A stretch of 64,000 nucleotides of DNA, from positions 372,001 through 436,000 of the forward strand of contig CANMYO010000003.1 of assembly GCA_947502145.1 (NCBI GenBank). Reading direction: 5' to 3'. Numbering within the stretch: the stretch's first letter is position 1; each line of letters opens with the position of its first letter. The position numbers and the translations under genes were made by a program. Under the pieces are notes generated by a model that saw nothing but the letters and a program-made list of their open reading frames with translations, was not told the origin of the DNA and ran no database searches. This DNA comes from an uncultured Paracoccaceae bacterium. Its GTDB lineage: Bacteria > Pseudomonadota > Alphaproteobacteria > Rhodobacterales > Rhodobacteraceae. Shown here one piece after another: positions 1 through 14,011 of this stretch.

Positions 1-384
1 GAAAGTTTCCGCTGGATGGGCAACACCGGCTGCGGTCAGAAGAATGGGTTGCAGTCATTCCAGAAGAACTGGCAACGTCCGTTTCAGGCGGCCTTCCATG
101 ACAAGGTCTGCGTCGATGAGGCGCGTCTTTACATGGGGGAGTGGGCTGCGGCTTTTGGCCGGCAAGAGGCGACGCATGGCGGTGAATTCATGGGGGTTCC
201 GGCCACTGGCAAGCGTATCGAAATCCGTTACATGGATTTTTGGAAAGTCGAGGACGGACGCATCACCGACAATTACGTCATGGTCGATTTCCCGCACGTG
301 CTGGCGCAGCTTGGCGTGGACGTCTTTAACGGACATGGCTGGGAAAAATACGACCGGGGCGAAGAAGAGGCACCCGCACCATGA
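1..384 (+). CDS. NTF2/SnoaL-like protein, 5' end cut by window edge
   Basis: The reading frame is open from base 1, so the gene almost certainly begins upstream. An internal ATG at 16 has no ribosome binding site in front. The visible part is about 127 residues and ends in the pattern typical of SnoaL/NTF2-like folds: MDFWKVEDGRITDNY, then a hydrophobic VDFPHVLAQLGVDVF tail. NTF2-like proteins form cone-shaped alpha+beta barrels that act as dehydratases, isomerases, epoxide hydrolases or aldol cyclases, or have no known activity. The stop overlaps the next start (ATGA at 381), so the two are translationally coupled. It is the first of four such proteins in this cluster. The fold assignment is firm; the reaction is unknown. 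Confidence 0.75.
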   Translation, partial: ESFRWMGNTGCGQKNGLQSFQKNWQRPFQAAFHDKVCVDEARLYMGEWAAAFGRQEATHGGEFMGVPATGKRIEIRYMDFWKVEDGRITDNYVMVDFPHVLAQLGVDVFNGHGWEKYDRGEEEAPAP

Positions 385-1397
385 GCCATCTTGCGCATAA
401 GTTGGCGGTGAAGGCCTATGCCGATGCCTATGCACATCCAGGCGAGGCGGCGCGCGCGGCGGCCACGGCGACCCTTTTTGCTGCGGAAGCAAAGATCAAC
501 CTGTGTCATCCCTTTAACACGCTGGACGGGACGGATGCATATCTGACCCAGTTCTTTCGACCGCTGACACAGGCCTTTGACGGGCTGTACCGGCGCGATG
601 ATATCATCATGGGAGGCGCGTTTGAGGGTGCCGACTGGGTGGCTTGCCATGGCAATTATGTTGGCCGCTTCAGCCGCGATCTGTTGAACATCCGCGCGTC
701 TGGGCGGTTGGAGTATCTGCGGTTTGGTGAGTTTCACCGGTTCGAAGCCGGACAGGTTGTTGAAAGCTATATCTTCCTCGACCTGCCGCAACTGATGATC
801 GCCACGGATCAATGGCCCATCAAGGACAGCCCGGGCAAGGACCGCGGCTATACCGGGATGATCCCCGGACCCAATACGCAGGACGGTCTGTTGTTGTACG
901 ACACGGACCCGGCGGCGGGGCAGGTCTCTTACCAGCTGGTCACGGATATGTTGTCCAAGCTGGCCACCAAGGACGAAGGCTGGCGGCCCTATTGGCATGA
1001 CAACATGGTCTGGTACGGCCCGGCCGCCTTTGGGTCATTCATTGGCGTTGAGGACTTTGCCGGATTCCAGGTGCCGTTTGAAAACGCCTTTTCATACTGG
1101 GGTGGCGGGTCGTCCGGCAACGGGGTCACTGTCCATTTTACCCGGTTTGGTGATGGTGACTACACATGCTCGGGCGGGTGGCCGTCGCTGATGGCTGTGC
1201 GGCGTGACGCCTTCCTCGATCAACCGGCCACGACCGATACGCTGTTGATGCGTGTCTGTGACTGGTGGCGGCGCGAAGGTGACCTGCTTGTCGAAAACTG
1301 GGTCTTCGTCGATATCCCCGATGTGCTTTTGCAGATGGGCTGTGACCTGTTTGAAGGTCACCATCAGGTGGCCCCCGGTCCGCGGTATCAGGGATGA
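381..1397 (+). CDS. Two-domain NTF2/SnoaL-like protein
   Basis: The product is 338 residues, about twice a single NTF2-like domain. The first repeat covers roughly residues 10-145 (motifs CHPFNTLDG and GEFHRFEAGQVVESY). The second covers roughly 200-330 (NMVWYGPAAFG, CDWWRREGDLLVENW, then VDIPDVLLQMGCDLF). Both repeats end in the same acidic-aromatic strand followed by a hydrophobic helix, as in the preceding gene, which points to tandem duplication. The start overlaps the upstream stop (ATGA), and its own stop overlaps the next start. No signal peptide is present, so it should be cytoplasmic. The catalytic role is unknown; a dehydratase, isomerase or hydrolase step in the cluster's pathway is an inference. 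Confidence 0.8.
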   Translation: MSHLAHKLAVKAYADAYAHPGEAARAAATATLFAAEAKINLCHPFNTLDGTDAYLTQFFRPLTQAFDGLYRRDDIIMGGAFEGADWVACHGNYVGRFSRDLLNIRASGRLEYLRFGEFHRFEAGQVVESYIFLDLPQLMIATDQWPIKDSPGKDRGYTGMIPGPNTQDGLLLYDTDPAAGQVSYQLVTDMLSKLATKDEGWRPYWHDNMVWYGPAAFGSFIGVEDFAGFQVPFENAFSYWGGGSSGNGVTVHFTRFGDGDYTCSGGWPSLMAVRRDAFLDQPATTDTLLMRVCDWWRREGDLLVENWVFVDIPDVLLQMGCDLFEGHHQVAPGPRYQG

Positions 1398-2113
1398 ACG
1401 ATTGGGACTCCTCTGCTGCGTCATGGATTACGCAAATCGGACAGGACGGTGACGCAACCCGACGCGACATCCTTGATGCACCGATGGTTGCGGCCCTTCC
1501 GGCGCAGGGCCATGCCCTTGACGTTGGCTGCGGCGAAGGACGGTTTTGCAGAATGATGCAGGCCGCTGGGCTGACCACTGTCGGTCTTGACCCGACAGCG
1601 GCGCTTTTGGATGCGGCCCGCGACCGCGACCCAACGGGCAGCTACACAAAGTCCCGCGCCGAGGCTTTGCCGTTCCCAGCGGCGCATTTTGATGTTGTGG
1701 TGTTTTATCTCACGCTGATTGATATTCCCGACATGCCCGCCGCCATCGCCGAGGCCGCACGTGTGCTCAAGCCCGGCGGGCGGCTGTTGATTGCCAACAT
1801 GCACCCCCATGCGACCGCGCGCCCCCGTGACTGGGGCGGCACGGGGGGCAATTGGGCGCAAGGCCGCCGGTTCTTTGCCATTGATGACATGATGCAGGAC
1901 CGCGCCAACTGGTACGAATGGGCCGGGATCAGGGTGAAAAACCATCATCGCCCGCTGTCCGCCTATATGAATGCCTGTTTGGCCGAAGGACTTGACTTAC
2001 GTCTATTCGACGATCCGCCGTACACAGGGCAAGACCCTGATATTGCAGATAAATTTACCCGTATGCCCTGGGTTTTTCTGATGGCCTGGGACAAACCGCA
2101 GATCTCTGATTGA
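1394..2113 (+). CDS. Class I SAM-dependent methyltransferase
   Basis: This is a 239-residue Rossmann-fold methyltransferase. The SAM-binding motif I, LDVGCGEGRFCRMM, lies near residues 41-54. It is followed by an acidic GLDPT strand end and, around residues 105-135, by a post-motif that includes AARVLKPGGRLLIAN. It resembles the UbiE/MenG-like Methyltransf_11/25 families, which methylate small molecules. The start overlaps the preceding stop by four bases. The substrate cannot be read from the sequence. Its place among NTF2-like proteins and dehydrogenases suggests that it modifies a pathway metabolite, but a repair or detoxification role is equally possible. Confidence 0.85.
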   Translation: MNDWDSSAASWITQIGQDGDATRRDILDAPMVAALPAQGHALDVGCGEGRFCRMMQAAGLTTVGLDPTAALLDAARDRDPTGSYTKSRAEALPFPAAHFDVVVFYLTLIDIPDMPAAIAEAARVLKPGGRLLIANMHPHATARPRDWGGTGGNWAQGRRFFAIDDMMQDRANWYEWAGIRVKNHHRPLSAYMNACLAEGLDLRLFDDPPYTGQDPDIADKFTRMPWVFLMAWDKPQISD

Positions 2114-2125
2114 AAGGACGCCACG

Positions 2126-3454
2126 ATGGCAATCCGCCACCTCAAGAAAGCCCGCTCGGCCGAAGCACGCGCCGAAGATGATGCCAAGACCAGCGCAGTT
2201 GTCGCGGCCACCTTGAAAGATATCGAAACCCGCGGCGATGCGGCGGTCAAAGAACTGGCTGTCAAATTCGACAACTATGACCGCGACAGTTATCGGCTAA
2301 GCGAGGATGAAATCGCGGCGATCATGGCCAAGGTCAGCGACCGCGATATGGCGGATATCAAATTTGCACAGGCGCAGGTGGTGAACTTTGCCCAGGCGCA
2401 ACGTGACTCGATGCTCGACATCGAGGTTGAAACCCTGCCCGGCGTTATCCTTGGCCACAAGAACATCCCCGTTCAATCGGTGGGCTGTTATGTGCCGGGC
2501 GGCAAATTCCCCATGGTTGCCTCTGCGCATATGTCGGTCGCCACGGCGAAGGTTGCAGGCGTGCCGCGCATCATCGCCTGCACCCCGCCATTCAACGGAG
2601 AGCCGAACCCGGCGGTGATTGCGGCGATGCATCTTGGCGGCGCGCATGAGATTTATGTACTGGGCGGCATTCAGGCAGTTGGGGCAATGGCCATTGGCAC
2701 CGAAACGATTGATCCGGTGCATTTGCTTGTTGGTCCCGGCAATGCCTTTGTCGCAGAGGCAAAGCGTCAGTTGTTCGGGCGCGTTGGCATCGACCTGTTT
2801 GCCGGTCCGACCGAAACGATGGTGATTGCTGACGAAACCGTTGATGCAGAAATCTGTGCGACCGACCTGCTGGGGCAGGCAGAGCATGGCTATAACTCGC
2901 CGGCTGTTCTGCTGACCAATTCTGAAAGGCTCGCCAAGGACACGCTGAGCGAAATTGATCGGATTCTGGGCATTCTGCCAACAGCGGGCACAGCCAAGGT
3001 CAGCTGGGATGATTATGGCGAAGTGATCGTGTGCGACACCTACGAGGAAATGTTGGCCGTCGCCGATGACATTGCGTCCGAACATGTGCAGGTGATGACA
3101 GATCGTGATGACTGGTTCCTTGAAAACATGACCTGCTATGGTGCGCTGTTTCTTGGGGCGCGCACCAATGTCGCCAACGGCGACAAGGTCATTGGCACCA
3201 ATCACACGCTGCCAACCAAGAAAGCGGGGCGCTATACCGGCGGATTGTGGGTCGGCAAGTATTTGAAAACGCATAGCTATCAAAAGGTCACCACCGATGA
3301 GGCAGCAGCCGAGATTGGTGCCTATGGGTCACGTCTGTGTTTGCTCGAAGGCTTTGTCGGCCATGCGGAACAGTGCAATCTGCGGGTGCGGCGATATGGC
3401 GGGATCAACGTCCCCTATGGTGCGCCGGCCCCCTACAAGGATGCTGCCGAGTGA
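2126..3454 (+). CDS. HisD-superfamily zinc/NAD dehydrogenase (HpsN-like, probably not histidine biosynthesis)
   Basis: The product is 442 residues and aligns along its length with histidinol dehydrogenase, a zinc enzyme that oxidises a primary alcohol to an acid with two NAD. The expected metal and catalytic residues are visible: Q251 and H254 (LLGQAEHG), E319-H320 (ASEHVQVM), D353 ([10 protein letters not shown]) and H413 ([12 protein letters not shown]). The segment [17 protein letters not shown] is of the kind found in catabolic HisD paralogues such as sulfopropanediol dehydrogenase HpsN, as I recall that family. No other his gene is nearby, and NTF2-like, SDR and LacI genes flank it. A good Shine-Dalgarno (AAAGGA) precedes the ATG. 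I infer oxidation of a hydroxymethyl group to a carboxylate in a catabolic route; true histidinol dehydrogenase is less likely. Confidence 0.85.
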
Positions 3455-4497
3455 GTGACTATGCCGCCCATCGCGCTTTGCTTGACCCTGTCAGATCCGC
3501 CATGCGGGACTGGGATGGCAAGGCCGTGCGGGCGGCACTTCATGCGGTGATGGCGCCGGGCGTGCAGGTGCACATGTGCCACCCATTTGGGGATTTGACC
3601 GGGGCGGATGCCTTCTTTGACGGGGTGATGGCACCGTTGCAGACCGCAATGCCGGACGTGGAACGCCGCGACTGGATCGTAATGGCTGGCCCTGATGATC
3701 ATGGCTATGATTGGATTGGCTGTGCCGGGCATTATGTTGGCACGTTCCTGCGGCCATTCCTCGACATCCCGATGACCGGTCATCTGGCCCATATGCGGTT
3801 TCACGAATTCTATCGCGTTGCTGGGGGCCGTGTGGTTGAAGTGCAGGCGATCTGGGATATCCCCGAGCTGATGATGCAGGCCGGTGCCTGGCCCATGGCA
3901 CCAAGCCTTGGCCGCGAATGCTGGATTCCGGGTCCGGCCAGTCAGGATGGATTGCGTCAGGGTGCCTATGATCAGGCTGCAAGCGAAAGCGCCAAGGCGC
4001 ATGTCCTGGCGATGCTGGCGGCAATGGGCCGCCACCCGCAGGAACCGCCCGAGGCGATGGAGATGCCGAAGTTCTGGCATCCGCAGATGAACTGGTACGG
4101 CCCCGCGGGCATCGGAACTGGCCGTGGCGTGGCAGGGTTTCGCAACTGGCATCAGATTCCATTCCTTGCGGCGATGCCGGACCGGGGCAAGTATCGCGAC
4201 ACCATGGGCTATCACTTTTTTGGCGATGGCCCTTATGTCGCTGTGACCGGCTGGCCCAACATGAAACAGACGCTCTCCCTGGGCGGTTGGCTTGGCCTTG
4301 CGCCCACTGGCACAACCCTGACCATGTGCAGCCTCGACTTCTGGCGGCTCGAAAACGGCAGGATCCGCGAAAACTGGGTGCTGCTTGATATGCTGGATAT
4401 CTATCGGCAGCTGGGCGTCGATGTCCTGGCGCGCATGGGTGAGTTTAACAAGGCGCGGGCCGCGGGGCCGCTGCCGATCGCAAAGGACTACAGCTGA
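3451..4497 (+). CDS. Two-domain NTF2/SnoaL-like protein
   Basis: I chose the GTG at 3451 because it overlaps the upstream TGA (GTGA) and gives 348 residues beginning [11 protein letters not shown]. The longer open frame runs back into the dehydrogenase gene. As in the 381-1397 product there are two NTF2-like repeats. The first is at roughly 10-150 ([31 protein letters not shown]). The second is at roughly 205-330 ([50 protein letters not shown]). The two proteins are clearly paralogues. The stop overlaps the SDR start as TGATG. Function is unknown beyond the fold; soluble, no signal peptide. Confidence 0.8.
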
Positions 4498-5261
4498 TGG
4501 AGCTTCCGCAGACCCCTTCCTTCAATCTCACTGGCAAGCGTGCGCTTGTCGCTGGTGCCTCAAGCGGGATCGGACTGGGCTGTGCTGTGGCACTGGCCAG
4601 GGCAGGGGCCGAGGTGCTGCTTGCCGCGCGCTCTGCCGACAAGTTGCAAACGGCGGTCGACGCAATGACAAAGGCCGGCATGGCCGCCAGCGCGCTGACC
4701 CTGGATGTGGCAGATATTCCCGCAACCGAAGCCGCCGTCGCCGCGCATGGCCCCTTCGACATCCTTGTGAATTCCGCTGGCCTGGCCCGGCACGGCCCCG
4801 CGCTGGACACGACAGAGTCGGATTTTGATGCGGTGTCCGGCCTGAACATCAAAGGCGCCTACTTTCTGACCCGCGCGGTCGCAAAAGGTCTGATCAGCGC
4901 TGGAAAGCCCGGCAGCCTGATCAACATCTCCAGCCAGATGGCCCATGTCGGCGGGATTGACAGGGCTGTCTATTGTGCCACCAAACACGCGGTCGAAGGC
5001 TTCACCAAGGCGATGGCCATCGAATGGGGCAAGCAGGGCATCCGGGTTAACACTGTTTGCCCGACATTCATTGTGACGCCCCTGACCCAAGCGACATTTG
5101 ACAATCCCGAACGCGCGGCCTGGATCATGGACAAGATCAAGCTAGGCCGGGTGGGCGAAGTCAGCGACATCATGGGCCCTGTGGTCTACCTCGCCTCTGA
5201 CGCAAGCGCGCTGATGACAGGCACCCATCTGCTGATTGACGGAGGTTGGACAGCCGACTGA
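4497..5261 (+). CDS. Short-chain dehydrogenase/reductase
   Basis: This is a 254-residue classical SDR. The nucleotide-binding GASSGIG is at residues 20-26, NSAG at 92-95, a catalytic serine near 145, and the YxxxK pair at Y159 and K163. The C terminus ends in the usual DGGW. The residue at the end of the second strand is Arg (AARS), which is compatible with NADP or NAD. Classical SDRs of this size oxidise or reduce secondary alcohols and sugar or polyol derivatives. The gene overlaps both neighbours (TGATG junctions at 4497 and at 5259-5263). The substrate is unknown; it should act with the HisD-like enzyme on the same hydroxylated compound. Confidence 0.9.
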   Translation: MELPQTPSFNLTGKRALVAGASSGIGLGCAVALARAGAEVLLAARSADKLQTAVDAMTKAGMAASALTLDVADIPATEAAVAAHGPFDILVNSAGLARHGPALDTTESDFDAVSGLNIKGAYFLTRAVAKGLISAGKPGSLINISSQMAHVGGIDRAVYCATKHAVEGFTKAMAIEWGKQGIRVNTVCPTFIVTPLTQATFDNPERAAWIMDKIKLGRVGEVSDIMGPVVYLASDASALMTGTHLLIDGGWTAD

Positions 5262-6280
5262 TGGCCCAGGACAAGGTCACATCACTGGATGTTGCCAAGC
5301 GGGCAGGCGTCAGCCAGTCCGCCGTCAGCCGTGTCTTTACCCCCGGCGCGTCAGCCAGCCCCAAAACGGTGGAAAAGGTCAAGGCCGCCGCCTCAGCGCT
5401 TGGCTATCGCCCCAATATGATGGCGCGCGCGATGATCACGGGCAAGAGCCGCATTATCGGACTGATCGTTGCCTACCTGGACAACCAGTTCTACCCGCTG
5501 GCTTTGGAAGGGCTGTCAAACGCATTGCAGGCGCAGGGTTATCACCTGCTGGTCTTTACCGCGTCCAATGCCCAGGACCGCGTGACCGAGATCGTGCAGG
5601 ACCTGATGGATTATCAGGTCGATGGGATCATCACAGCCAGCGTTGGCATGTCCAACGACCTCACGGCAAGATGTGCTGCGGCGGGCATTCCGGTGGTGAT
5701 GTTCAACCGTGGCCAGGACGAAACAGAGATTTCCGCCGTGACCAGCGCCAATGTTGCAGGCGGGCGCAAGGCGGCAGATTTTCTGATGGCGGCCGGGCAT
5801 CGCCATATCGGCCATATCAGCGGCTGGCAGGGATCCTCGACCGGGCGCGACCGCCAACGTGGGTTTCTGGGCGCGCTGGCCGCCGCGGGACATGTGCCAA
5901 CACATGTCATCGACGGCATGTATGACCGCCAGATTGCCGGAGATGCCGCCCTGACGATGATGGACAGTGCGACCCCTCCGGACGCGATCTTTGTCGGCAA
6001 CGATCATATGGCGTTTGCGGTGATGGATGCGCTGCGCAGCCGCGGCATCAGAATTCCTGATGATACGGCAATCATTGGATATGACGACGTGCCTGCCGCG
6101 GCCTGGGCGGCCTATGACCTGACAACGGTGCGCCAGCCTGTGAACCAGATGGTGCAGGCGACGACCGAACTTATTCTGGCTCAGATCACCGACCCCGACG
6201 CCCCGGCGCGCCGGATCGAGATTGACGGCCCCCTGATCACACGCGGCTCTGCGCCGCAAAACCAAAGGACCAAGACATGA
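5261..6280 (+). CDS. LacI-family transcriptional regulator
   Basis: The ATG at 5261 overlaps the SDR stop and has a GGAGG-like site at 5241-5245, giving 339 residues. The N-terminal helix-turn-helix (VTSLDVAKRAGVSQSAVSRV) and the hinge region (GYRPNMMARAMITGKSRIIG) are typical of LacI/GalR repressors. A periplasmic-binding-protein-like sensor domain follows from about residue 60. The regulator is embedded in the operon rather than at its edge, which suggests autoregulation together with the catabolic genes and a sugar-like or polyol-like inducer. Its operator is probably upstream of the window; I could not find a convincing palindrome in the gaps visible here. Confidence 0.92.
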   Translation: MAQDKVTSLDVAKRAGVSQSAVSRVFTPGASASPKTVEKVKAAASALGYRPNMMARAMITGKSRIIGLIVAYLDNQFYPLALEGLSNALQAQGYHLLVFTASNAQDRVTEIVQDLMDYQVDGIITASVGMSNDLTARCAAAGIPVVMFNRGQDETEISAVTSANVAGGRKAADFLMAAGHRHIGHISGWQGSSTGRDRQRGFLGALAAAGHVPTHVIDGMYDRQIAGDAALTMMDSATPPDAIFVGNDHMAFAVMDALRSRGIRIPDDTAIIGYDDVPAAAWAAYDLTTVRQPVNQMVQATTELILAQITDPDAPARRIEIDGPLITRGSAPQNQRTKT

Positions 6281-7257
6281 CCGCCTATATGAACCGATGG
6301 ACGGATTTTCCCGACTATATCATCGGCATCACCAAAGAAATTTGGGAAGATCGCGGGGTGGGGACGCTAGACCATTATTATGCCAAGGACATTCCGGTCC
6401 GCTCACCCATGGGCATAACCATGGGCAACGCAGCGGTGAAGGCCGCCACCATGGCGACGATCAATGAATTTCCCGACCGGCAGCTTTTTGGCGAGGATGT
6501 GATCTGGAGCGAGGATGAAACCGGCCTGCTGTCCTCGCACCGCCTGAATACAGTGGCAACGCATCTGCATGACGGGGCCTTTGGCAAGGCGACCGGCAAG
6601 AAATGGAACGTGCGGGTAATCGCAGATTGCGCCGTGCGTGGTGAGACGATCTTTGATGAATGGCTGATCCGGGATTATGGCGGCATCGTGCGCCAGCTGG
6701 GCATGGATCCAGCGGCCTATGCGGCAGAGCTGATCAAAAAAGAGGGCGGCCCCGACAAGGCCGCGATGCCCTTCACCCCGGCCATTGATGTGGATGGTGG
6801 TTACCACGGCACCGGCAACGACAATGAATGGGGCGCGCGTTATGCCGAAACGCTCACCCGCATCATGGCCATGGATTTTACTCATATTCACCGGACCTAT
6901 GACCGGGCCGTCATTGGCGAATATCCCGGAGCGCAGACGCTGATTTCAGCCGAAGAATGCACGAAATTCTGGGTTGGTCTGCGGTCGTCTTTCCCGAATG
7001 CGACGTTCACGATCCATCATCAAATCGGGATGGATGGCGGGATGTTGTCGCCCAGAGCCGCCATCCGCTGGAGCCTTGACGGCCGTCATGATGGATGGGG
7101 CACCTTTGGTGCGCCAACCGGTGCGCCGGTGCACATTATGGGGATGTGTCACGCCGAATATGGTCCCTTTGGACCCGATGGCGTCGGCCTGCGTCGTGAA
7201 TTTGCGCTTTATGATGAAATCGCGATCTGGAAACAGATCCTGATGCATCAGGGTTAG
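6277..7257 (+). CDS. Two-domain NTF2/SnoaL-like protein
   Basis: The product is 326 residues, and its start overlaps the regulator stop (ATGA). Two NTF2-like repeats can be made out, roughly residues 10-150 and 195-320. Motifs include MGNAAVKAATMATINEFPD and DEWLIRDYGGIVRQLGMD in the first, and RAAIRWSLDGRHDGWG and FALYDEIAIWKQILMH in the second. It is more divergent from the other three than they are from each other. Several exposed His, Asp and Trp residues could form an active-site pocket, but no known catalytic signature is certain. The gene ends the first tightly overlapped block; 112 bases without a recognisable gene follow before the cupin gene. Confidence 0.75.
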   Translation: MTAYMNRWTDFPDYIIGITKEIWEDRGVGTLDHYYAKDIPVRSPMGITMGNAAVKAATMATINEFPDRQLFGEDVIWSEDETGLLSSHRLNTVATHLHDGAFGKATGKKWNVRVIADCAVRGETIFDEWLIRDYGGIVRQLGMDPAAYAAELIKKEGGPDKAAMPFTPAIDVDGGYHGTGNDNEWGARYAETLTRIMAMDFTHIHRTYDRAVIGEYPGAQTLISAEECTKFWVGLRSSFPNATFTIHHQIGMDGGMLSPRAAIRWSLDGRHDGWGTFGAPTGAPVHIMGMCHAEYGPFGPDGVGLRREFALYDEIAIWKQILMHQG

Positions 7258-7369
7258 GGCACGGTGCAAACCCTTCGCAGATCTTTCTTATCCAATGTCG
7301 GGCCCGCGCTGCGCGCCCTCATGCTGGCGGCGATCTTGCCGTCACCCAACCAATCGAAAAGGAAACAAA

Positions 7370-8335
7370 ATGACCCCCGCTGAGATGGAAGCCCGCATCG
7401 TTCGATACGGCGACCTGCAACCCTGCAAGACCGCCTTTATCGACGCGCATACGCCGGGCAGCGACCAGAAAGAGAACTTCACCATTATCGGTGGAGGCGT
7501 CTCGGAAAGCCCGGACCAGCACGTCCATATCGGTATCCCGCATGGGTTCAATATCGGTGCTGCCGGTCAACCGCCCAAATGCCGCAATTCGCTGCACAGC
7601 CATCGCACCGCCGAAGTCTTTTTTGTTCTCAAGGGGCGCTGGCGTTTCTTCTGGGGGCGGTATGGCACCGCAGGCGAGGTTGTTCTGGAAGAAGGCGATA
7701 TTTTCAACATCCCGACCGGGATTTTCCGGGGATTTGAAAACATCGGCACCGACTACGGAATGATCATGGCGATCCTGGGCGGTGACGACGCCGGGGGCGG
7801 TGTCATCTGGGCACCGCAAGTGATCGAGGATGCCACCGACCACGGTCTGGTACTTGGTGAAAACGGCAAACTCTATGACAGTAAGAAGGGACAGTCCCTC
7901 CCCGATGGTGTCGGTCCGATGCCGCTTTTGACCGAAGAGGAACTGAAGACCTATCCCGAGCCGAGCACTGCGGACGTCATTCCGGGCTATGTCGGGCGGT
8001 ATTGGGACATGGTTGCGATGGCCGACAAGACACCGGCCATGGTGATCGGCGAAAATGCGATGCTGAAGGACAAGCCGGGGTTTGAGGTCAGTTTGATCAC
8101 CCGTGAAAGTGCAAGTGACGCGATGCACAGTCACCCCTACCCATCGGTGTTGATGCCGATGTTTGGCCATTGGAAGGTGACATGGGACGGCGGCGCGGCC
8201 ACCTTGGCACCTGGCGACACCATGTCGATGCCGGAAAACATCGCCCATGCGGTCGTCCCTTCCATGACCGGTCATGCCTCGCTTTACCATGTGGTTGCGA
8301 CCAGCGACCCGGCCGGCGCGACCTGGAAAGGTTAA
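7370..8335 (+). CDS. Bicupin domain protein
   Basis: The ATG at 7370 follows an AAAAGGAAAC ribosome site and gives 321 residues. The frame stays open upstream, but those codons lack a site. Cupin motif 1 appears at about residue 78 (SLHSHRTAEVFFVLKGRW), with His residues for metal binding and the EEGDIFNIPTG motif 2 after it. A second, weaker cupin near the C terminus has HSHPYPSVLMPMFGHW and APGDTMSMPENIAHAV. Bicupins of this size include gentisate-type dioxygenases, isomerases and sugar-binding proteins. A metal-dependent oxygenase or isomerase step is plausible; the substrate is unknown. Confidence 0.85.
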   Translation: MTPAEMEARIVRYGDLQPCKTAFIDAHTPGSDQKENFTIIGGGVSESPDQHVHIGIPHGFNIGAAGQPPKCRNSLHSHRTAEVFFVLKGRWRFFWGRYGTAGEVVLEEGDIFNIPTGIFRGFENIGTDYGMIMAILGGDDAGGGVIWAPQVIEDATDHGLVLGENGKLYDSKKGQSLPDGVGPMPLLTEEELKTYPEPSTADVIPGYVGRYWDMVAMADKTPAMVIGENAMLKDKPGFEVSLITRESASDAMHSHPYPSVLMPMFGHWKVTWDGGAATLAPGDTMSMPENIAHAVVPSMTGHASLYHVVATSDPAGATWKG

Positions 8336-8348
8336 TTTTGTTAAGATT

Positions 8349-8373
8349 CCCGGCAGCATGGGTTGTTGCCGGG
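8349..8373 (+). promoter_or_regulatory. Intercistronic hairpin
   Basis: A perfect 7-bp inverted repeat (CCCGGCA / TGCCGGG) with an 11-base loop lies 13 bases after the cupin stop and about 40 bases before the next start. No T run follows, so it is not a classic intrinsic terminator. Related GTTGCC words recur just downstream. It may stabilise or attenuate the mRNA between the upper and lower halves of the cluster. Confidence 0.5.
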
Positions 8374-8411
8374 ATGTTGCCATGATGTTGCTTACCAAAA
8401 AGGACCGTGCG

Positions 8412-9539
8412 ATGCCGAAGATTCTGACCAGCCATGTGGGGTCACTACCCCGGACACAAGAAGTCGTCGATTTCATCTTTGCCCGCGAGCGGGGTCAGGA
8501 TTACGACCCAGCCGCCTTTGACGCCGCGATGACCACGGCAGTTGATGAAACCGTGCGAAAACAGAAGGTTGCGGGTGTCGACATCGTGTCCGACGGGGAG
8601 ACGTCCAAGATCAGCTACGCGACCTACGTCAAGGATCGTTATACCGGGTTTGAAGGCGACAGCCCACGCAACGCGCCTGCTGACCTCAAGAAATTCCCCA
8701 GCTTTCTCAAGCGCTTGTCCGATGATGGTGGAACCGCAGACTACGCCCGCCCGCTTTGCGTTGGCGAGGTGAAATCAAAGGGGCAGGGAGAATTGGAAAA
8801 GGACATTGCCAATCTCAAGGCGGCGATGGCCAAACACGGCGTCAATCGCGGCTTCATGAACGCGGCCTCTCCGGGTGTTATCTCATTGTTCTTGCAGAAT
8901 GAATATTACAAATCGCGCGAGGCGTATCTGGCAGCACTGGCAGATGCGATGAAGGCCGAATACCAAACGATTGTGGGCGCAGGGCTTGATCTTCAACTGG
9001 ATTGTCCCGACCTCGCCCTGTCACGCCATATGCTGTTCAATGACCTGTCGGATGATGAATTCATCAAAATCGCTGCCGGCCATGTTGAAGCACTGAATCA
9101 TGCACTTAGCGACATTCCCGCCGAAAAGGTCCGGGTGCACATCTGCTGGGGCAACTACGAGGGCCCGCACGTGTGCGACATTCCGATGTCCAAGATGTTC
9201 GACACCTTAATGAGCACCAAGGCGCAATATGTTCTGTTCGAAACCTCCAACCCGCGCCACGGGCACGAATGGAGCGTGTTCCGTGACCGCAAGGGGGACA
9301 TTCCAGACAACAAGGTGCTTGTTCCGGGTGTTGTGGATACCACCACCAACTTTGTCGAGCATCCCGAATTGGTCGCGCAACGTCTTGAAAGGTTTAAGGA
9401 TATTGTCGGGGCAGAGCGTGTTGTCGCAGGCTCTGACTGTGGTTTTGGAACCTTTGCGGGCTACGGCGCGGTTGATCCAGAAATCGCCTATGCCAAACTC
9501 GGCGCGCTGGTCGAGGGAGCGGCGCTCGCCTCATCATGA
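8412..9539 (+). CDS. Stand-alone MetE C-terminal-domain-like zinc protein
   Basis: The ATG at 8412 sits 8 bases after AAAAAGGA and gives 375 residues. The product starts MPKILTSHVGSLPR, as in proteins of the cobalamin-independent methionine synthase II family. The zinc ligands of that fold are visible as H243 and C245 (VRVHICWGN), probably E277 (VLFETSN) and C343 (AGSDCGFGT). At about 375 residues it lacks the N-terminal half of true MetE (about 750 residues). Family members activate a thiol on zinc for alkyl transfer; epoxyalkane:coenzyme M transferase is one example. In this setting it may demethylate or dealkylate a pathway intermediate. Methionine synthesis itself is unlikely. Confidence 0.85.
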   Translation: MPKILTSHVGSLPRTQEVVDFIFARERGQDYDPAAFDAAMTTAVDETVRKQKVAGVDIVSDGETSKISYATYVKDRYTGFEGDSPRNAPADLKKFPSFLKRLSDDGGTADYARPLCVGEVKSKGQGELEKDIANLKAAMAKHGVNRGFMNAASPGVISLFLQNEYYKSREAYLAALADAMKAEYQTIVGAGLDLQLDCPDLALSRHMLFNDLSDDEFIKIAAGHVEALNHALSDIPAEKVRVHICWGNYEGPHVCDIPMSKMFDTLMSTKAQYVLFETSNPRHGHEWSVFRDRKGDIPDNKVLVPGVVDTTTNFVEHPELVAQRLERFKDIVGAERVVAGSDCGFGTFAGYGAVDPEIAYAKLGALVEGAALASS

Positions 9540-10228
9540 CGCCCCTTGTTATGTTGCCGGGCATGATGTGTGATGCGCGGCTCTTTGAACCACAGATTGC
9601 GGCGTTCTCAACGCAGCGCGCGGTGCATGTCGCACCGATTGGCGGGCATGACAGCGTTGCCGGAATTGCGGCTGAGGTGCTGCAGAACGCCCCGCCGCGC
9701 TTTGCCCTGATGGGTTTGTCCATGGGTGGGATTGTGGCGATGGAAATATTGCGGCAGGCACCTCAGCGTGTCGCGCGGATCGCGCTGCTTGATACCAATC
9801 CCAAGGCGGAACATCCTGATGTGGCCGCGGGGCGCGACCCCCAGATTGCCAAGGTCATGTCCGGTGAGCTGATCGCTGTCATGCGCGATGAAATGAAGCC
9901 GAATTATCTGACTGATGGCCCAACGCGCTCCGCGATCCTTGATTTGTGCATGGCGATGGCCCGCGATCTTGGTCCTGACGTTTTTGTGCGCCAATCCCGC
10001 GCGTTGCAGCAACGGCCCGACCAGCAGGATACCTTGCGGGACTGCACCGTGCCGGCACTGATCCTGTGCGGGCGCGATGATGCGTTATGCCCCGTGCACC
10101 GCCATACGTTGATGCAAGCGCTTATCCCGCATAGCGAACTCTACATCGTTGACAATGCGGGACATTTGCCGACGCTGGAGCAACCCCAAGAAACAACGGC
10201 GATCTTGCAACGCTGGCTGGAGAAATGA
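9536..10228 (+). CDS. Alpha/beta hydrolase
   Basis: This is a 230-residue alpha/beta hydrolase with a nucleophile elbow GLSMGG (Ser62), a probable acid at D181 or D182 (LCGRDDALCP) and the catalytic histidine H210 (DNAGHLPTLEQP). It is close to the minimal size of the fold, with a short cap. The start overlaps the previous stop (ATGA) and the stop overlaps the RraA-like start. Such enzymes cleave esters, lactones, thioesters or C-C bonds of beta-diketones. A lactone or ester hydrolysis step within the pathway is a reasonable inference; the substrate cannot be deduced. Confidence 0.88.
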   Translation: MTPLVMLPGMMCDARLFEPQIAAFSTQRAVHVAPIGGHDSVAGIAAEVLQNAPPRFALMGLSMGGIVAMEILRQAPQRVARIALLDTNPKAEHPDVAAGRDPQIAKVMSGELIAVMRDEMKPNYLTDGPTRSAILDLCMAMARDLGPDVFVRQSRALQQRPDQQDTLRDCTVPALILCGRDDALCPVHRHTLMQALIPHSELYIVDNAGHLPTLEQPQETTAILQRWLEK

Positions 10229-10923
10229 TGGAAACGAACCTGTTGGAACTGCTGCGCGCAGTAGATACGCCCACCGTTTGCAATGCGATTGAAGTCGCGC
10301 AGGGCCAGCGCGGATTTAACGACTTCACCCGCGGCACGATGATTTGCAGCGCGCCCGACGGTCCTGCCGCTGTCGGGTATGCGGTGACCGCCAAGATCGC
10401 CGCCCTGCGCCCGCCAAACGAACCGCCCGAAGTAATCCGCGCCCGCCGCATGGCCTACTACAAGGCTATGGCTGAGGCCACTCAACCCAGCCTCTGCGTG
10501 ATCGAGGATGAAGATTTTCCCAATGCCATCGGGGCCTTTTGGGGAGAGGTCAATACGACGATCCACAAGGGCTTTGGCCTGTCGGGAACCTTGACAAATG
10601 GGGTGATGCGCGACCTGGGCGATATGGCGCCGGGCTATCCGGTGATTGCCGGATCAATTGGTCCCAGTCACGGCTTTGTTCATGTCACGGCCCTGGACAC
10701 GCCGGTTAACGTCTTTGGCTTAACGGTGCGGCCCGGTGATTTGGTGCATGCCGACCGCCATGGGGCGGTTGTTGTCCCACCAGACGTGATTACCCGGCTC
10801 GCCGGGGCAATAGAGAAAATGCAGCAAACCGAACAGCTTGTCCTTGCGCCCGCGCGGGAACCGGGATTTGACTTTGCAAAGTTCGAGGCGGCGTGGACAG
10901 CCTTTGAAAAGGCACGCACCTGA
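10225..10923 (+). CDS. RraA / HMG-aldolase family protein
   Basis: The product is 232 residues. It carries the RraA-fold core GTLTNGVMRDLGDM, in which the Arg and Asp correspond to the substrate-binding and metal-binding pair of 4-hydroxy-4-methyl-2-oxoglutarate/oxaloacetate aldolases. The usual TDG is TNG here. DLVHADRHGAVVVPPD matches the family's C-terminal GD..H.D..G motif. ATG at 10225 and ATG at 10228 are both possible starts. Enzymatic family members release pyruvate from 4-hydroxy-2-oxoacids; others bind RNase E. Its position next to a D-2-hydroxyacid dehydrogenase favours an aldolase at the end of the pathway. Older databases call such proteins demethylmenaquinone methyltransferase, which is misleading. 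Confidence 0.88.
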   Translation: MMETNLLELLRAVDTPTVCNAIEVAQGQRGFNDFTRGTMICSAPDGPAAVGYAVTAKIAALRPPNEPPEVIRARRMAYYKAMAEATQPSLCVIEDEDFPNAIGAFWGEVNTTIHKGFGLSGTLTNGVMRDLGDMAPGYPVIAGSIGPSHGFVHVTALDTPVNVFGLTVRPGDLVHADRHGAVVVPPDVITRLAGAIEKMQQTEQLVLAPAREPGFDFAKFEAAWTAFEKART

Positions 10924-10977
10924 CGCGCATTGCCAGTCCAGGCGCTGCATGTTTCAAAGGCGCAAAGGAGCGCTGTC

Positions 10978-12387
10978 ATGCTGAACCCGGTCACCGCAGA
11001 ATTTGAAGCGCTGTTGCGCCAACATCTTTCGCCCGCTGCGTTCAAGGACGACACCGCACCTTACATGCGGGAACCGCGCAAGCGCTGGACAGGGCAGGGG
11101 ATCGTTGTGGCCCCGGCTGATACCCAGGAGGTCGCGACCGTTGTCAGGCTCTGCCATGACGCGCGGATCGGCGTGGTGCCCTATGGCGGCGGCACCGGGC
11201 TGGTGGGCGGCCAGTTGCAGCCAGAGGGGCCCGCCCCGGTTGTGCTGTCGCTTGAGCGGATGTCACGTATTCGCGATATCCATGTCGCAGAGAATGTCCT
11301 GATTGCTGAAGCGGGTGCGATCCTCGCGGATGTGCAGACCGCCGCACGTGATCATGACCGCCTGTTCCCGCTCTCGCTCGCCTCCGAAGGGTCGGCGCGT
11401 ATCGGGGGGTTGCTTTCGACCAATGCGGGAGGCGTGAACGTGTTGCGCTATGGCAATGCCCGCGCCCAATGCCTTGGCCTAGAGTTAGTCCGGCCTGACG
11501 GAACAATCTGGAATGGTTTGTCACGACTGCGCAAAGACAACACCGGGTACGATCTGCGCAATCTGGTGATCGGGGCAGAGGGCACATTGGGGATCATCAC
11601 GGCCGCAGCGCTGCGCCTTGTGCCCCAACCCGGTGACATTGGTGCGATGATGTTGGCCGTGCCTTCGCCAGAGGCGGCGCTTGACCTGCTGGCGTTGACG
11701 CAGGCCGAGGTGGGCGAAGGTCTGTCTGCGTTCGAACTGATCCACCGGCAGGGTCTCGCATTTCTGACCGAAACCGGGCTGGAGTTACGCGCGCCTTTTG
11801 AGCAGCCGCCGGAATGGATGGTGCTTGTCGACGTTGGCCTACCTGCAGGCGGTCATTCCGAGGCCGCGCTGGAACGCATATTCGAACAGGGTGCCGCACG
11901 TGACCTGACCACGGACGGAGTGATCGCCCAGTCATTTGCAGACCGCGATGCCCTGTGGGCAATCCGCGAAACGATCCCAGAGGCGAACCGCCGGGTCGGG
12001 TCGATCAGCTCGCACGATATCGCGCTGCCGCTAAGCGAAATCCCGGCATTCATTGTAGAGGGCGGTCGGCGGCTGACTGCGCTGGCTGACATCCGCATCA
12101 ATTGTTTTGGCCATCTGGGTGACGGGAACCTGCATTACAATGTGTTTCCCGCCATTGGCAAATCGCGTGACGATTATGGAGCCCTAGGGGATGAGGTCAA
12201 GAAAGTCGTACATGACCTGACCCATGAGATGGGCGGCTCCGTCAGTGCGGAGCACGGAATAGGCCGATTGAAAGTCACCGATCTTGAGACCTATGGCGAT
12301 CCGGCAAAGCTTGCGATGATGCGGGCCATCAAGGCGGCGCTTGATCCGCGCGGGATCATGAATCCCGGCGCGGTTCTGCGCGACTGA
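10978..12387 (+). CDS. FAD-binding D-2-hydroxyacid dehydrogenase (GlcD/DLD family)
   Basis: The ATG at 10978 follows AAAGGAG and gives 469 residues. The N-terminal PCMH-type FAD domain shows PYGGGTGLVGGQ, TNAGGVNVLRYGNARAQCLG and GAEGTLGIITAAALRL. The C-terminal FAD-oxidase domain shows NCFGHLGDGNLHYNVF and SAEHGIGRLK, ending LDPRGIMNPGAVL. These are hallmarks of glycolate oxidase GlcD, D-lactate and D-2-hydroxyglutarate dehydrogenases. The single-subunit form, without GlcE or GlcF nearby, is closer to D-2-hydroxyglutarate or D-lactate dehydrogenases. I infer that it oxidises a D-2-hydroxyacid to the 2-oxoacid that the RraA-like protein could then cleave. It is the last gene of the cluster and converges with apt. 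Confidence 0.9.
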   Translation: MLNPVTAEFEALLRQHLSPAAFKDDTAPYMREPRKRWTGQGIVVAPADTQEVATVVRLCHDARIGVVPYGGGTGLVGGQLQPEGPAPVVLSLERMSRIRDIHVAENVLIAEAGAILADVQTAARDHDRLFPLSLASEGSARIGGLLSTNAGGVNVLRYGNARAQCLGLELVRPDGTIWNGLSRLRKDNTGYDLRNLVIGAEGTLGIITAAALRLVPQPGDIGAMMLAVPSPEAALDLLALTQAEVGEGLSAFELIHRQGLAFLTETGLELRAPFEQPPEWMVLVDVGLPAGGHSEAALERIFEQGAARDLTTDGVIAQSFADRDALWAIRETIPEANRRVGSISSHDIALPLSEIPAFIVEGGRRLTALADIRINCFGHLGDGNLHYNVFPAIGKSRDDYGALGDEVKKVVHDLTHEMGGSVSAEHGIGRLKVTDLETYGDPAKLAMMRAIKAALDPRGIMNPGAVLRD

Positions 12388-12461: not shown

Positions 12462-13001
12462 TCAGTCGCCATCGAATGCGCAGAGGGCATGAACATCCAT
12501 GCCTAGCGCCTCAAGCCGTTTGCGACCGCCAAGATCGGGCAGGTCGATGACAAAGGCGCAGCCCACCACCTCGGCCCCCATCCTCTCGATCAGTTTGATG
12601 CCTGCCTCGGCTGTGCCGCCGGTCGCCAGCAGGTCATCAACCAGAAGCACCTTTTCACCCGGTTTCAGCGCGTCGTCGTGCACTTCCATGATCGCCTCGC
12701 CATATTCGAGCGTATAGGATTGTTCGATCGTGTTGCCGGGCAGTTTTCCCTTCTTGCGGATCGGGACAAACCCAAGCGACAATTGATGCGCGATGGCGCC
12801 GCCAAGGATGAACCCGCGTGCTTCGAGCCCGATGACCCGGTCGATCGGCAAGCCGGCATAGGGGTGCAGAAGTTGGTCAATGGCAATGCGAAAGCCGCGC
12901 GGATCGGCGAAGAGCGTGGTGACATCGCGAAACATGATGCCGGGCTTGGGAAAGTCGGGAATGGTGCGGATGTAGTCCTGAACTGATTTCATCGGGGTCA
13001 C
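12462..13001 (-). CDS. apt: Adenine phosphoribosyltransferase
   Basis: This 179-residue enzyme converts adenine and PRPP to AMP in purine salvage. Family features are the N-terminal [20 protein letters not shown], the [10 protein letters not shown] segment and the PRPP-binding motif [17 protein letters not shown]. The GTG at 13001 gives an N terminus ([11 protein letters not shown]) of the length usual in relatives; the ATG at 12992 would shorten it by three residues, and neither has a strong ribosome site. It lies three bases downstream of mtnP on the same strand. The adenine released by methylthioadenosine phosphorylase would be its substrate, so the pair forms a salvage unit. Confidence 0.96.
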
Positions 13002-13004
13002 TTT

Positions 13005-13868
13005 CTAAAGGACGCGGCCAGCGACGGCGTCAAGTCTGGCCAATAGGTCGGGGTCACGCTTTTCGGGGGCGGTCATGATGGCGTGATCCAGGGCACAGTC
13101 GCAGCCCATCGGGCAGGGGTGGTGCGGTGCAAACGCCTGGGCGAGCGCCAAGATCATGTCACGCGCCTTTGTGCCGTTGCCTTGCAGTGTTGCGATGACA
13201 TCGCTGACGGCAACTGCGCCATGATCCGGGTGCCAACAGTCAAAATCAGTGATCATCGCAACCGAGGCATAGCAAAGCTCTGCTTCGCGGGCGAGTTTGG
13301 CTTCGGGCATGTTGGTCATGCCAATCACGTCGCAGCCCCATGATTTGTACAATTCGCTTTCGGCCCGCGTTGAAAACTGCGGACCTTCCATCGCCAGATA
13401 GGTGCCACCTTTGTGGGCCGTTACCCGGGCCGCGCGGGCAGCTGTCAAGCAGGCCTCAGAGAGACGTTCACATGTTGGTTGGGCGATGCTGACATGGGCG
13501 ACGCAACCGGTCCCAAAGAAAGACTTTTCACGGGCAAAGGTGCGGTCGATGAACTGATCGACAATGACAAAATCACCCGGCGGCCGATCATCGCGGAATG
13601 ATCCACAGGCGCTGACGCTGACCACATCGGTGCAGCCCAGCCGTTTGAGCGCATCTATGTTCGCGCGATAAGGCACAGTTGTCGGACTGTGCACATGCCC
13701 GCGCCCGTGACGCGGCAGAAAGGCAACAGCAGTGCCGTGCAACACACCCGTCAGGATTGCATCAGACGGTTCACCCCAGGGGGTATCAACATTCTGCCAG
13801 GCGGCGTCTGTGAGGCCGGGAACGTCATAAAGACCTGACCCGCCGATAATCCCAAGTCTGTCCGGCAT
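13005..13868 (-). CDS. mtnP: S-methyl-5'-thioadenosine phosphorylase
   Basis: The ATG at 13868, preceded by GGGGGC, gives 287 residues starting MPDRLGIIGGSGLYDVPG, the conserved phosphate-binding N terminus of MTAP. Further family motifs are FLPRHGRGHVHSPTTVPYRAN, GTYLAMEGPQFSTRAES and GMTNMPEAKLAREAELCYA. The enzyme splits methylthioadenosine, a by-product of polyamine synthesis and quorum-signal synthesis, into adenine and methylthioribose-1-phosphate. The adenine feeds apt just downstream. The much longer open frame upstream is rejected because it overlaps the promoter region shared with the divergent transporter gene. Cytoplasmic. Confidence 0.95.
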   Translation of the reverse strand: MPDRLGIIGGSGLYDVPGLTDAAWQNVDTPWGEPSDAILTGVLHGTAVAFLPRHGRGHVHSPTTVPYRANIDALKRLGCTDVVSVSACGSFRDDRPPGDFVIVDQFIDRTFAREKSFFGTGCVAHVSIAQPTCERLSEACLTAARAARVTAHKGGTYLAMEGPQFSTRAESELYKSWGCDVIGMTNMPEAKLAREAELCYASVAMITDFDCWHPDHGAVAVSDVIATLQGNGTKARDMILALAQAFAPHHPCPMGCDCALDHAIMTAPEKRDPDLLARLDAVAGRVL

Positions 13869-14011
13869 TTTGCCCCCATGGGTTGCACACCGAACCTTTG
13901 TCGCGGCAGCCGGGCTGCGGTGCAAGTGATTTGTGGCCCCACGGGGGGTGACAATTGCCGCTGCCCGCGCTAGGTGCCGGATCAACGCATCACATCCATA
14001 ACAGGTTCCCC

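Follow-up and report, generated by a model that had tools for sequence, protein, structure and literature searches.

The 64,000-nucleotide stretch of DNA analysed here (referred to below as the window) comes from an uncultured member of the Paracoccaceae (assembly GCA_947502145.1, contig CANMYO010000003.1, positions 372,001 to 436,000). At its start, spanning window positions 1-12387, is a cluster of 13 tightly packed, co-directional open reading frames (ORFs), among them genes for a histidinol dehydrogenase-like enzyme (HisD1), a bicupin, a LacI-family regulator and an RraA-like aldolase. We regard it as rather probable that this cluster is a self-contained, inducible catabolic island for a polyhydroxylated, probably cyclic, small molecule, which would be oxidised, ring-opened, hydrolysed and cleaved by an aldolase to pyruvate. 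A first-pass annotation made from the letters alone had described the genes as co-directional and mostly overlapping by a few bases, and the ORF map bears out that they are co-directional and tightly packed; it gave their number as twelve, although its own list names the thirteen counted here. Four-base overlaps join ORFs at 381/384, 1394/1397, 6277/6280, 9536/9539 and 10225/10228, and gaps of about 110 and 75 bases lie 5' of the cupin and MetE genes, respectively.

The first of these plus-strand genes encodes SnoaL-A (1..384), a single-domain SnoaL/NTF2-like protein. It had been called partial, which is true of the window, where its 3' part lies; in the genome the gene is complete and starts about 140 bases before the window. 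It is followed by SnoaL-B (381..1397), a double-length protein with one scored SnoaL stretch, and a class I S-adenosylmethionine-dependent methyltransferase (1394..2113; Methyltransf_11), both of which are accessory, the former rarely conserved and the latter not conserved. Then come HisD1 (2126..3454; Histidinol_dh), a HisD/HpsN-fold zinc alcohol dehydrogenase of an apparent third type with the motif GKFPM; SnoaL-C (3451..4497); a short-chain dehydrogenase/reductase (SDR; 4497..5261; adh_short_C2); the LacI-family regulator (5246..6280); and SnoaL-D (6277..7257), the SnoaL type present in most lineages. SnoaL-C and SnoaL-D are tandem proteins with two SnoaL stretches each. The bicupin (7370..8335; Cupin_2), for which the search queries began one codon earlier, at 7367, precedes a MetE catalytic-domain protein (8412..9539; Meth_synt_2), a PcaD-like alpha/beta hydrolase (9536..10228) and the RraA-like class II aldolase/decarboxylase (10225..10923). 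The last gene (10978..12387), also accessory, was initially labelled a D-2-hydroxyacid dehydrogenase; with FAD_binding_4 and FAD-oxidase_C domains, its product is a GlcD-type FAD (flavin adenine dinucleotide) oxidoreductase. Pfam and NCBIfam back all the families assigned to the 13 proteins. Further evidence comes from solved-structure matches (HisD1, SDR), alignments (HisD1, SnoaL-C, bicupin, MetE-like and RraA-like proteins) and structure models (SnoaL-D, bicupin).

The 20 kb upstream of the window (contig C3) completes the unit. Genes for an ATP-binding cassette (ABC) ATPase and a GMC-type FAD oxidoreductase run towards the window on its plus strand; divergent from them are genes for another SnoaL protein, the fifth, and for the substrate-binding protein and two permeases of a CUT1 transporter. 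The names of these genes are taken from the sequence and from matches to annotated relatives. The proposal in the first-pass annotation to look upstream for a transporter was thus a good one, since the CUT1 ABC genes are situated just 5' of the window. As the substrate-binding protein belongs to the general CUT1 sugar-binder family, it indicates no particular sugar. The genome from which the window comes has one copy of the cupin.

The closest solved relative of HisD1 is the sulfopropanediol dehydrogenase HpsN (8v35, E 8e-115). The HpsN report (PMC11382572) gives for that enzyme a G-R-Y-A/S-H signature, which includes the sulfonate-binding His126, and a two-step oxidation of CH2OH to COOH, and for HisD homologues a G-S-A-P-L motif. 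In 66 of the 68 aligned cluster sequences both are replaced by GKFPM, and the zinc-ligand and Glu-His catalytic positions of the HisD/HpsN fold are kept in the segments GQAEH, EHVQ, GDK...GTNH and GHAE. HisD1 therefore looks like a third specificity type, neither a histidinol nor a sulfopropanediol dehydrogenase, judged by these residues; its score is above the TIGR00069 hisD domain cut-off (418.8 vs 243.8). It shares with HpsN the HisD-fold NAD/zinc enzyme type and conserved Gln, His, Glu-His, Asp-Lys and His positions, but differs from it in the motif, and its cluster differs from those of HpsN in having no sulfonate lyase and in the addition of SnoaL, cupin and aldolase genes. A role in histidine biosynthesis is disfavoured, as the window's genome has two further HisD-family genes, one of them HpsN-like. 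This paralogue (L002, C1:437200-438426) has the motif GRYSH and is probably a true HpsN, a sulfopropanediol dehydrogenase. The second HisD of some related clusters (HisD2) has GRYPL, GRYPI or GRFPL at this place in ten sequences.

The N-terminal domain of the bicupin possesses an HxHx3E site which is invariant in 12 aligned sequences, and it is this domain that is kept in Deinococcus and Priestia, where the C-terminal one is lost. A solved-structure search with the cupin gave no significant match. Its AlphaFold2 model (pLDDT, a per-residue confidence score, 82, with residues 20-48 poor) resembles quercetin 2,3-dioxygenase (quercetinase), oxalate decarboxylase and salicylate 1,2-dioxygenase at a template modelling (TM) score of about 0.5 (Foldseek). 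The SnoaL-D model (pLDDT 95) resembles the tandem Lsd19/MonB epoxide hydrolases and polyketide cyclases in the same type of search. These two models place folds, not reactions. Two aspartates are fixed in each tandem SnoaL protein, D133 and D313 in 84/84 aligned SnoaL-D sequences and D174 and D351 in 48/48 of SnoaL-C, presumably at the place of the general-base Asp of the SnoaL fold. The MetE-like protein is not a full-length two-domain MetE, since only Meth_synt_2 was matched, without the folate-binding N-terminal half, and its best NCBIfam match scores 96 bits where the cut-off is 406. The presumed zinc ligands of the protein (His, Cys, Glu, Cys) are invariant in 54/54 aligned sequences. The nearest solved relatives of the SDR are annotated as 2-deoxy-D-gluconate 3-dehydrogenase, and its best NCBIfam match, under the cut-off, is KduD. 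The RraA-like protein keeps the active-site Arg-Asp pair (R129, D130) in 53/53 aligned sequences. It resembles the 4-carboxy-4-hydroxy-2-oxoadipate/4-hydroxy-4-methyl-2-oxoglutarate (CHA/HMG) aldolases ProA and LigK in family and in this pair, but it scores far under the curated ligK cut-off (30.5 vs 304.5 bits) and the cluster lacks the protocatechuate 4,5-cleavage genes.

A palindrome of LacI operator type, TTGCATACGTATGCAA, was repeatedly found 5' of transporter, HisD or cupin operons in the related loci described below. The divergent promoter of the window's cluster has two exact sites, TTGCATACGCTTGCAA and TTGCAAACGTATGCAA (L004 17150 and 17274). Within two mismatches, 101 sites occur in 80 loci, compared with 37-49 in three mononucleotide shuffles; exact TTGCANNCGNNTGCAA sites number 31, in 24 of the 80 loci, and a reversed-order control gave none. 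Exact matches to TTGCAWNCGNWTGCAA occur four times in the 4.03 Mb genome of the window, two being those of the divergent promoter. The third, TTGCATCCGCTTGCAA (C5), is inside an ORF reading like an AsnC/Lrp regulator, and the fourth, TTGCAACCGGTTGCAA (C1), has a different centre. Similar operator sites are present in Pantoea-type gammaproteobacteria, Deinococcus and Priestia. In the gammaproteobacterial genome G199 the cluster and an amidase gene are on different contigs, and an exact operator about 100 bases 5' of the amidase gene links it to the cluster regulon. We infer that the cluster LacI is the protein which binds this operator, and the cluster is probably LacI-controlled. Three places in the window's genome (C1:122662, C1:127256 and C1:449207) carry TTGCAACCGGTTGCAA or a sequence one mismatch away, which suggests that a further regulon of the LacI family uses a related operator.

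At least 513 cupin relatives were found by a profile search of one genome collection, and the best 80 were kept with their flanks. The conservation counts refer to the 54 of these loci which are at least 20 kb long (26 shorter ones were excluded), with the best match per place counted for each family and the hydrolase counted at ≥40% identity; given how the loci were drawn, they describe near relatives. LacI is present in 51 of the 54, SnoaL-D in 50, HisD in 49 and SDR in 48, followed by MetE (43), SnoaL-C (40), RraA (37), SnoaL-A (32) and the hydrolase (28; a best-match count of 30 held two matches, in L022 and L024, of 27% identity). For the transporter, permease-1 is found in 41 loci, permease-2 in 46 (three of these matches at 25-26% identity only), the substrate-binding protein in 38 and any CUT1 component in 48. 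Counts for SnoaL-E, HisD2 and SnoaL-B in the joint-occurrence tally were inflated by paralogue cross-matches and were discarded. HisD, SDR, LacI, SnoaL-D and the cupin occur together in 47/54 full loci. The expectation in the first-pass annotation that the genes travel together thus holds for a core and fails for the methyltransferase (0/54), the GlcD-type enzyme (4/54) and SnoaL-B (2/54); the upstream GMC enzyme is likewise rarely kept (6/54). Since the methyltransferase, the FAD D-2-hydroxyacid enzyme and SnoaL-B are local additions, a route common to these loci cannot require them. A different methyltransferase gene adjoins the end of the cupin gene in 16/80 loci. All of the best 80 loci are titled alphaproteobacteria with the sole exception of L068, a record titled Flavobacteriia; it and L067 (Roseobacter title) are both 16,242-base contigs with an identical cupin match, and the L068 title resembles contamination or misassignment.

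In an even draw of 398 Pseudomonadota genomes (thresholds of E≤1e-15 for the cupin, ≤1e-30 for SnoaL-D and ≤1e-130 for HisD1) the cupin profile matched in 25, comprising 16 of the 27 genomes of the window's own family (presumably Rhodobacteraceae, to judge by the named relatives) and 9 of the 371 elsewhere. SnoaL-D was found in 23 genomes, every one of them cupin-positive, and HisD1 in 31, which include all 23 with SnoaL-D. The frequency of the cupin in this family, together with the number of its relatives, indicates that the substrate is probably common in the sea and is also met on leaves and in soil.

The gene set is common to many marine and some land bacteria, and it reaches the Rhizobiales, gammaproteobacteria, Deinococcus and Priestia. 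Versions of the cluster, several of them rearranged, are found on plasmid records of Octadecabacter, Ruegeria, Paracoccus, Alloyangia, Martelella and Labrenzia, and of Sinorhizobium medicae, Ensifer, Pantoea dispersa, Deinococcus and Priestia filamentosa. An HpcH/HpaI aldolase takes the place of RraA in Pantoea, Priestia, Deinococcus and Ensifer NER9 (the family was checked for Pantoea and Ensifer); both families include pyruvate aldolases. A major facilitator superfamily (MFS) transporter stands in for the ABC transporter in Pantoea, Priestia and related gammaproteobacterial loci (L131-L134), and genes of the tripartite ATP-independent periplasmic (TRAP) type occur in or beside some loci. Some lineages add a module consisting of an amidase or carbon-nitrogen hydrolase, HisD2 and another SnoaL protein. 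The Ensifer NER9 locus lacks HisD and SDR and has, beside the cupin, genes for 3-oxo-tetronate kinase (OtnK) and 3-oxo-tetronate-4-phosphate decarboxylase (OtnC) instead; the same swap occurs in the second cluster copies of two relatives of the window's genus (L140, L141). These resemble the OtnK/OtnC/OtnI acid-sugar pathway in that the Ensifer kinase passes its curated NCBIfam cut-off (456 vs 350 bits), with the Ensifer decarboxylase (240.8 vs 250) and the L140 isomerase (291.7 vs 325) slightly short of theirs. They differ from it in that they adjoin a cupin and were seen only in HisD-less variants or beside a HisD-type cluster (L060); they are not in the window. That locus (L060 1-20739), from Primorskyibacter flagellatus, has a HisD-type cluster with a divergent cupin-OtnK-OtnC-SnoaL set alongside, as if related compounds were handled by both.

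The most likely function of the cluster is catabolism leading to pyruvate, given a LacI gene accompanied by a conserved operator of LacI type, an import system, two enzymes for oxidation, a hydrolase, what may be a ring opener, and pyruvate aldolases from two families that can replace each other. Such a route had been proposed in the first-pass annotation, and the core genes, the transporter, the operator and the pyruvate-type aldolase family speak for it, whereas the methyltransferase, the FAD enzyme and SnoaL-B drop out of it. The reactions, and the order in which we give them, are predictions. The CUT1 ABC transporter (MFS or TRAP in some relatives) would import a polyhydroxylated, probably cyclic, compound. 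A preparatory step, in which a substituent is removed or rearranged, would fall to the SnoaL-type enzymes, with the conserved Asp probably serving as acid/base. HisD1 may then oxidise a primary alcohol adjoining a hydroxyl group to the carboxylate (CH2OH to COOH), and the SDR a secondary alcohol. The ring would be opened or isomerised by the cupin, the product hydrolysed by the PcaD-like enzyme and, as predicted from the family to which RraA (or HpcH/HpaI) belongs, split by a retro-aldol reaction to pyruvate plus another acid. Transfer of a methyl group onto a thiol would be the task of the MetE-like zinc protein. Since OtnK and the decarboxylase can replace HisD and SDR, the non-pyruvate fragment is probably a four-carbon oxo-acid which retains its CH2OH where HisD is missing, and a retro-aldol reaction giving such a four-carbon ketone would require a tertiary alcohol. 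The RraA-like CHA/HMG aldolases cleave tertiary alcohols.

The meta-cleavage pathways for aromatic compounds, which use a dioxygenase, a C-C hydrolase and an HpaI-type aldolase, have a similar order of enzymes, in that a possible ring opener is followed by an alpha/beta hydrolase and then a class II pyruvate aldolase. Here, by contrast, the cupin activity is putative, no hydratase was identified, and the transporter and regulator are of sugar type. The lignin-dimer (LdpA, PhcF/G), pantothenate, vitamin B6, rhizopine and apiose pathways do not seem to fit the gene set. The first-pass annotation knew of no described pathway with this set, and in the open-access literature searched, outside which most subscription journals lie, neither such a pathway nor genes for mycosporine catabolism turned up. 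New here are the conserved operator, the apparent third HisD type, the exchanges of RraA for HpcH/HpaI and of HisD/SDR for OtnK/decarboxylase, and the amidase with the same operator. Knowledge of the substrate would assign a new class of HisD-fold dehydrogenases as well as catabolic roles for tandem SnoaL and MetE-like zinc proteins, possibly explain what becomes of a large pool of dissolved organic matter, and may throw light on the recycling of a common natural product. For finding the inducer, the operator and the transporter are a direct handle.

Several observations weigh against a catabolic route of this form. The five core genes plus hydrolase and aldolase are all present in only 17/54 full loci; RraA is absent at 17/54, the hydrolase at 26/54 and both at 7/54. 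MetE and the hydrolase had been considered as two alternatives for handling a methyl group; this idea was dropped, as 17 of the 26 loci lacking the hydrolase have MetE and nine do not. So was that of cupin, hydrolase and aldolase as a universal inner core, which is often broken in Rhodobacterales loci; the three are all present in 10 of 12 distant loci (L131-L137, L140-L142), while L138 (12 kb only) has the cupin without hydrolase or aldolase and L139 the cupin alone. The cupin has Arg at the place of the last His ligand of the common cupin motif, and with a fold match as weak as TM ~0.5 dioxygenase activity is no more than putative. The operator is exact only in the 24 loci mentioned above, many others having one or two mismatches or no site. 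Lastly, HisD1 was expected to be confined to cupin loci, and this expectation failed, since 8 of its 31 genomes (8 of the 398 drawn) have no cupin match. In these eight (L155-L162) an SDR of ≥50% identity adjoins HisD1 in four, a LacI relative is present in four and the same operator in two, and several have neighbours which by eye are ABC sugar transporter, Gfo/Idh and TIM-barrel sugar enzyme genes. Such sugar-type neighbourhoods without a cupin favour a broader sugar-acid or polyol substrate for HisD1.

It is for this reason that, among special cases of the catabolic island, we rank a non-phosphorylative sugar-acid pathway first, as a tentative possibility. HisD1 would make an aldarate, a SnoaL protein would be the dehydratase, the cupin a KduI-like isomerase, the hydrolase a lactonase, the SDR KduD-like and RraA/HpcH a GarL-like aldolase. 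The CUT1 transporter and LacI fit such a pathway, as do the SDR relatives and its KduD match, the HpcH matches to HpaI and GarL (under their cut-offs), and the apparent sugar genes beside HisD1 elsewhere. Yet the usual sugar-acid dehydratase families were not named among the conserved genes (no separate search was aimed at them), KduI does not appear among the 50 Foldseek matches listed, out of 1960, for the cupin, and the amidase and MetE are left unexplained.

Less likely again, and to our minds rather doubtful, is a role of the cluster as the pathway, so far missing, by which bacteria break down mycosporines, mycosporine-like amino acids and gadusols, the sunscreens of algae, cyanobacteria, fungi and fish eggs. 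C7 cyclitols of this kind carry a methoxy group and have a carbon of the tertiary-alcohol type; the mycosporines among them also bear an amino acid as a substituent. SnoaL enzymes would free the amino acids, HisD1 would oxidise the C5 hydroxymethyl group (on a tertiary carbinol) and the cupin would cleave the methoxy-enolone ring; the hydrolase and MetE would handle the methyl ester or ether, and RraA or HpcH would split a 4-carboxy-4-hydroxy-2-oxoadipate-type acid to pyruvate and oxaloacetate. In the HisD-less OtnK variant gadusol would give pyruvate and 3-oxo-tetronate, and the amidase and HisD2 would process the glutaminol side chains of fungal mycosporines. By chemical reasoning, this would account for a tertiary-carbinol aldolase and for OtnK/OtnC in place of HisD, and also for the amidase with the same operator. 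It would account too for the Vibrio pelagius match, where only the transporter and SnoaL genes of the system are seen within the 31 kb read. According to a review (PMC3083659), Vibrio harveyi has been suggested to free shinorine and porphyra-334 of their amino acids, and a locus of this kind in Vibrio would agree with that. Against so specific a substrate stands the occurrence of HisD1 in other neighbourhoods without cupin or SnoaL, and MetE is found only in Octadecabacter and Ruegeria among 14 plasmid loci compared, though the compounds of the others would also bear a methoxy group. We also know of no SnoaL enzyme which hydrolyses enaminones.

A biosynthetic cluster, with the SnoaL proteins as polyketide cyclases and the methyltransferase as a tailoring enzyme, is suggested by the SnoaL family name and by the polyketide and polyether enzymes among the Foldseek neighbours of SnoaL-D; it is very improbable in view of the import-type ABC transporter, LacI and the aldolases, the non-conserved methyltransferase, and the fact that no synthase was identified among the cluster genes. 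Nor was a polyketide synthase seen among the annotated products of those plasmid stretches that carry annotation (no separate synthase search was run). Degradation of the sulfonate 2,3-dihydroxypropane-1-sulfonate, with HisD1 as HpsN, follows from the closest solved relative and is rejected as scarcely credible, for HisD1 does not carry the HpsN signature with its sulfonate-binding His126, the genome's separate copy does carry GRYSH, and the cluster genes include no sulfonate lyase. The preferred reading thus remains a catabolic island for a polyhydroxylated compound.

The Octadecabacter arcticus cluster (L007 1-20520) is plasmid-borne. IS5 and IS6 transposase genes surround it and a short transposase gene of DDE type lies inside, a context which is compatible with mobility of the cluster. 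A gene for a CIA30-family protein lies 3' of the cluster in 9/80 loci (the family was checked for L022 13425-13898), and Deinococcus sp. QL22 (L020) has an annotated CIA30-family gene a few kilobases past its cluster. In the window itself the cluster is followed on the opposite strand, at 12462-14153, by what we take to be adenine phosphoribosyltransferase-like and methylthioadenosine phosphorylase-like genes, which are not counted in it.

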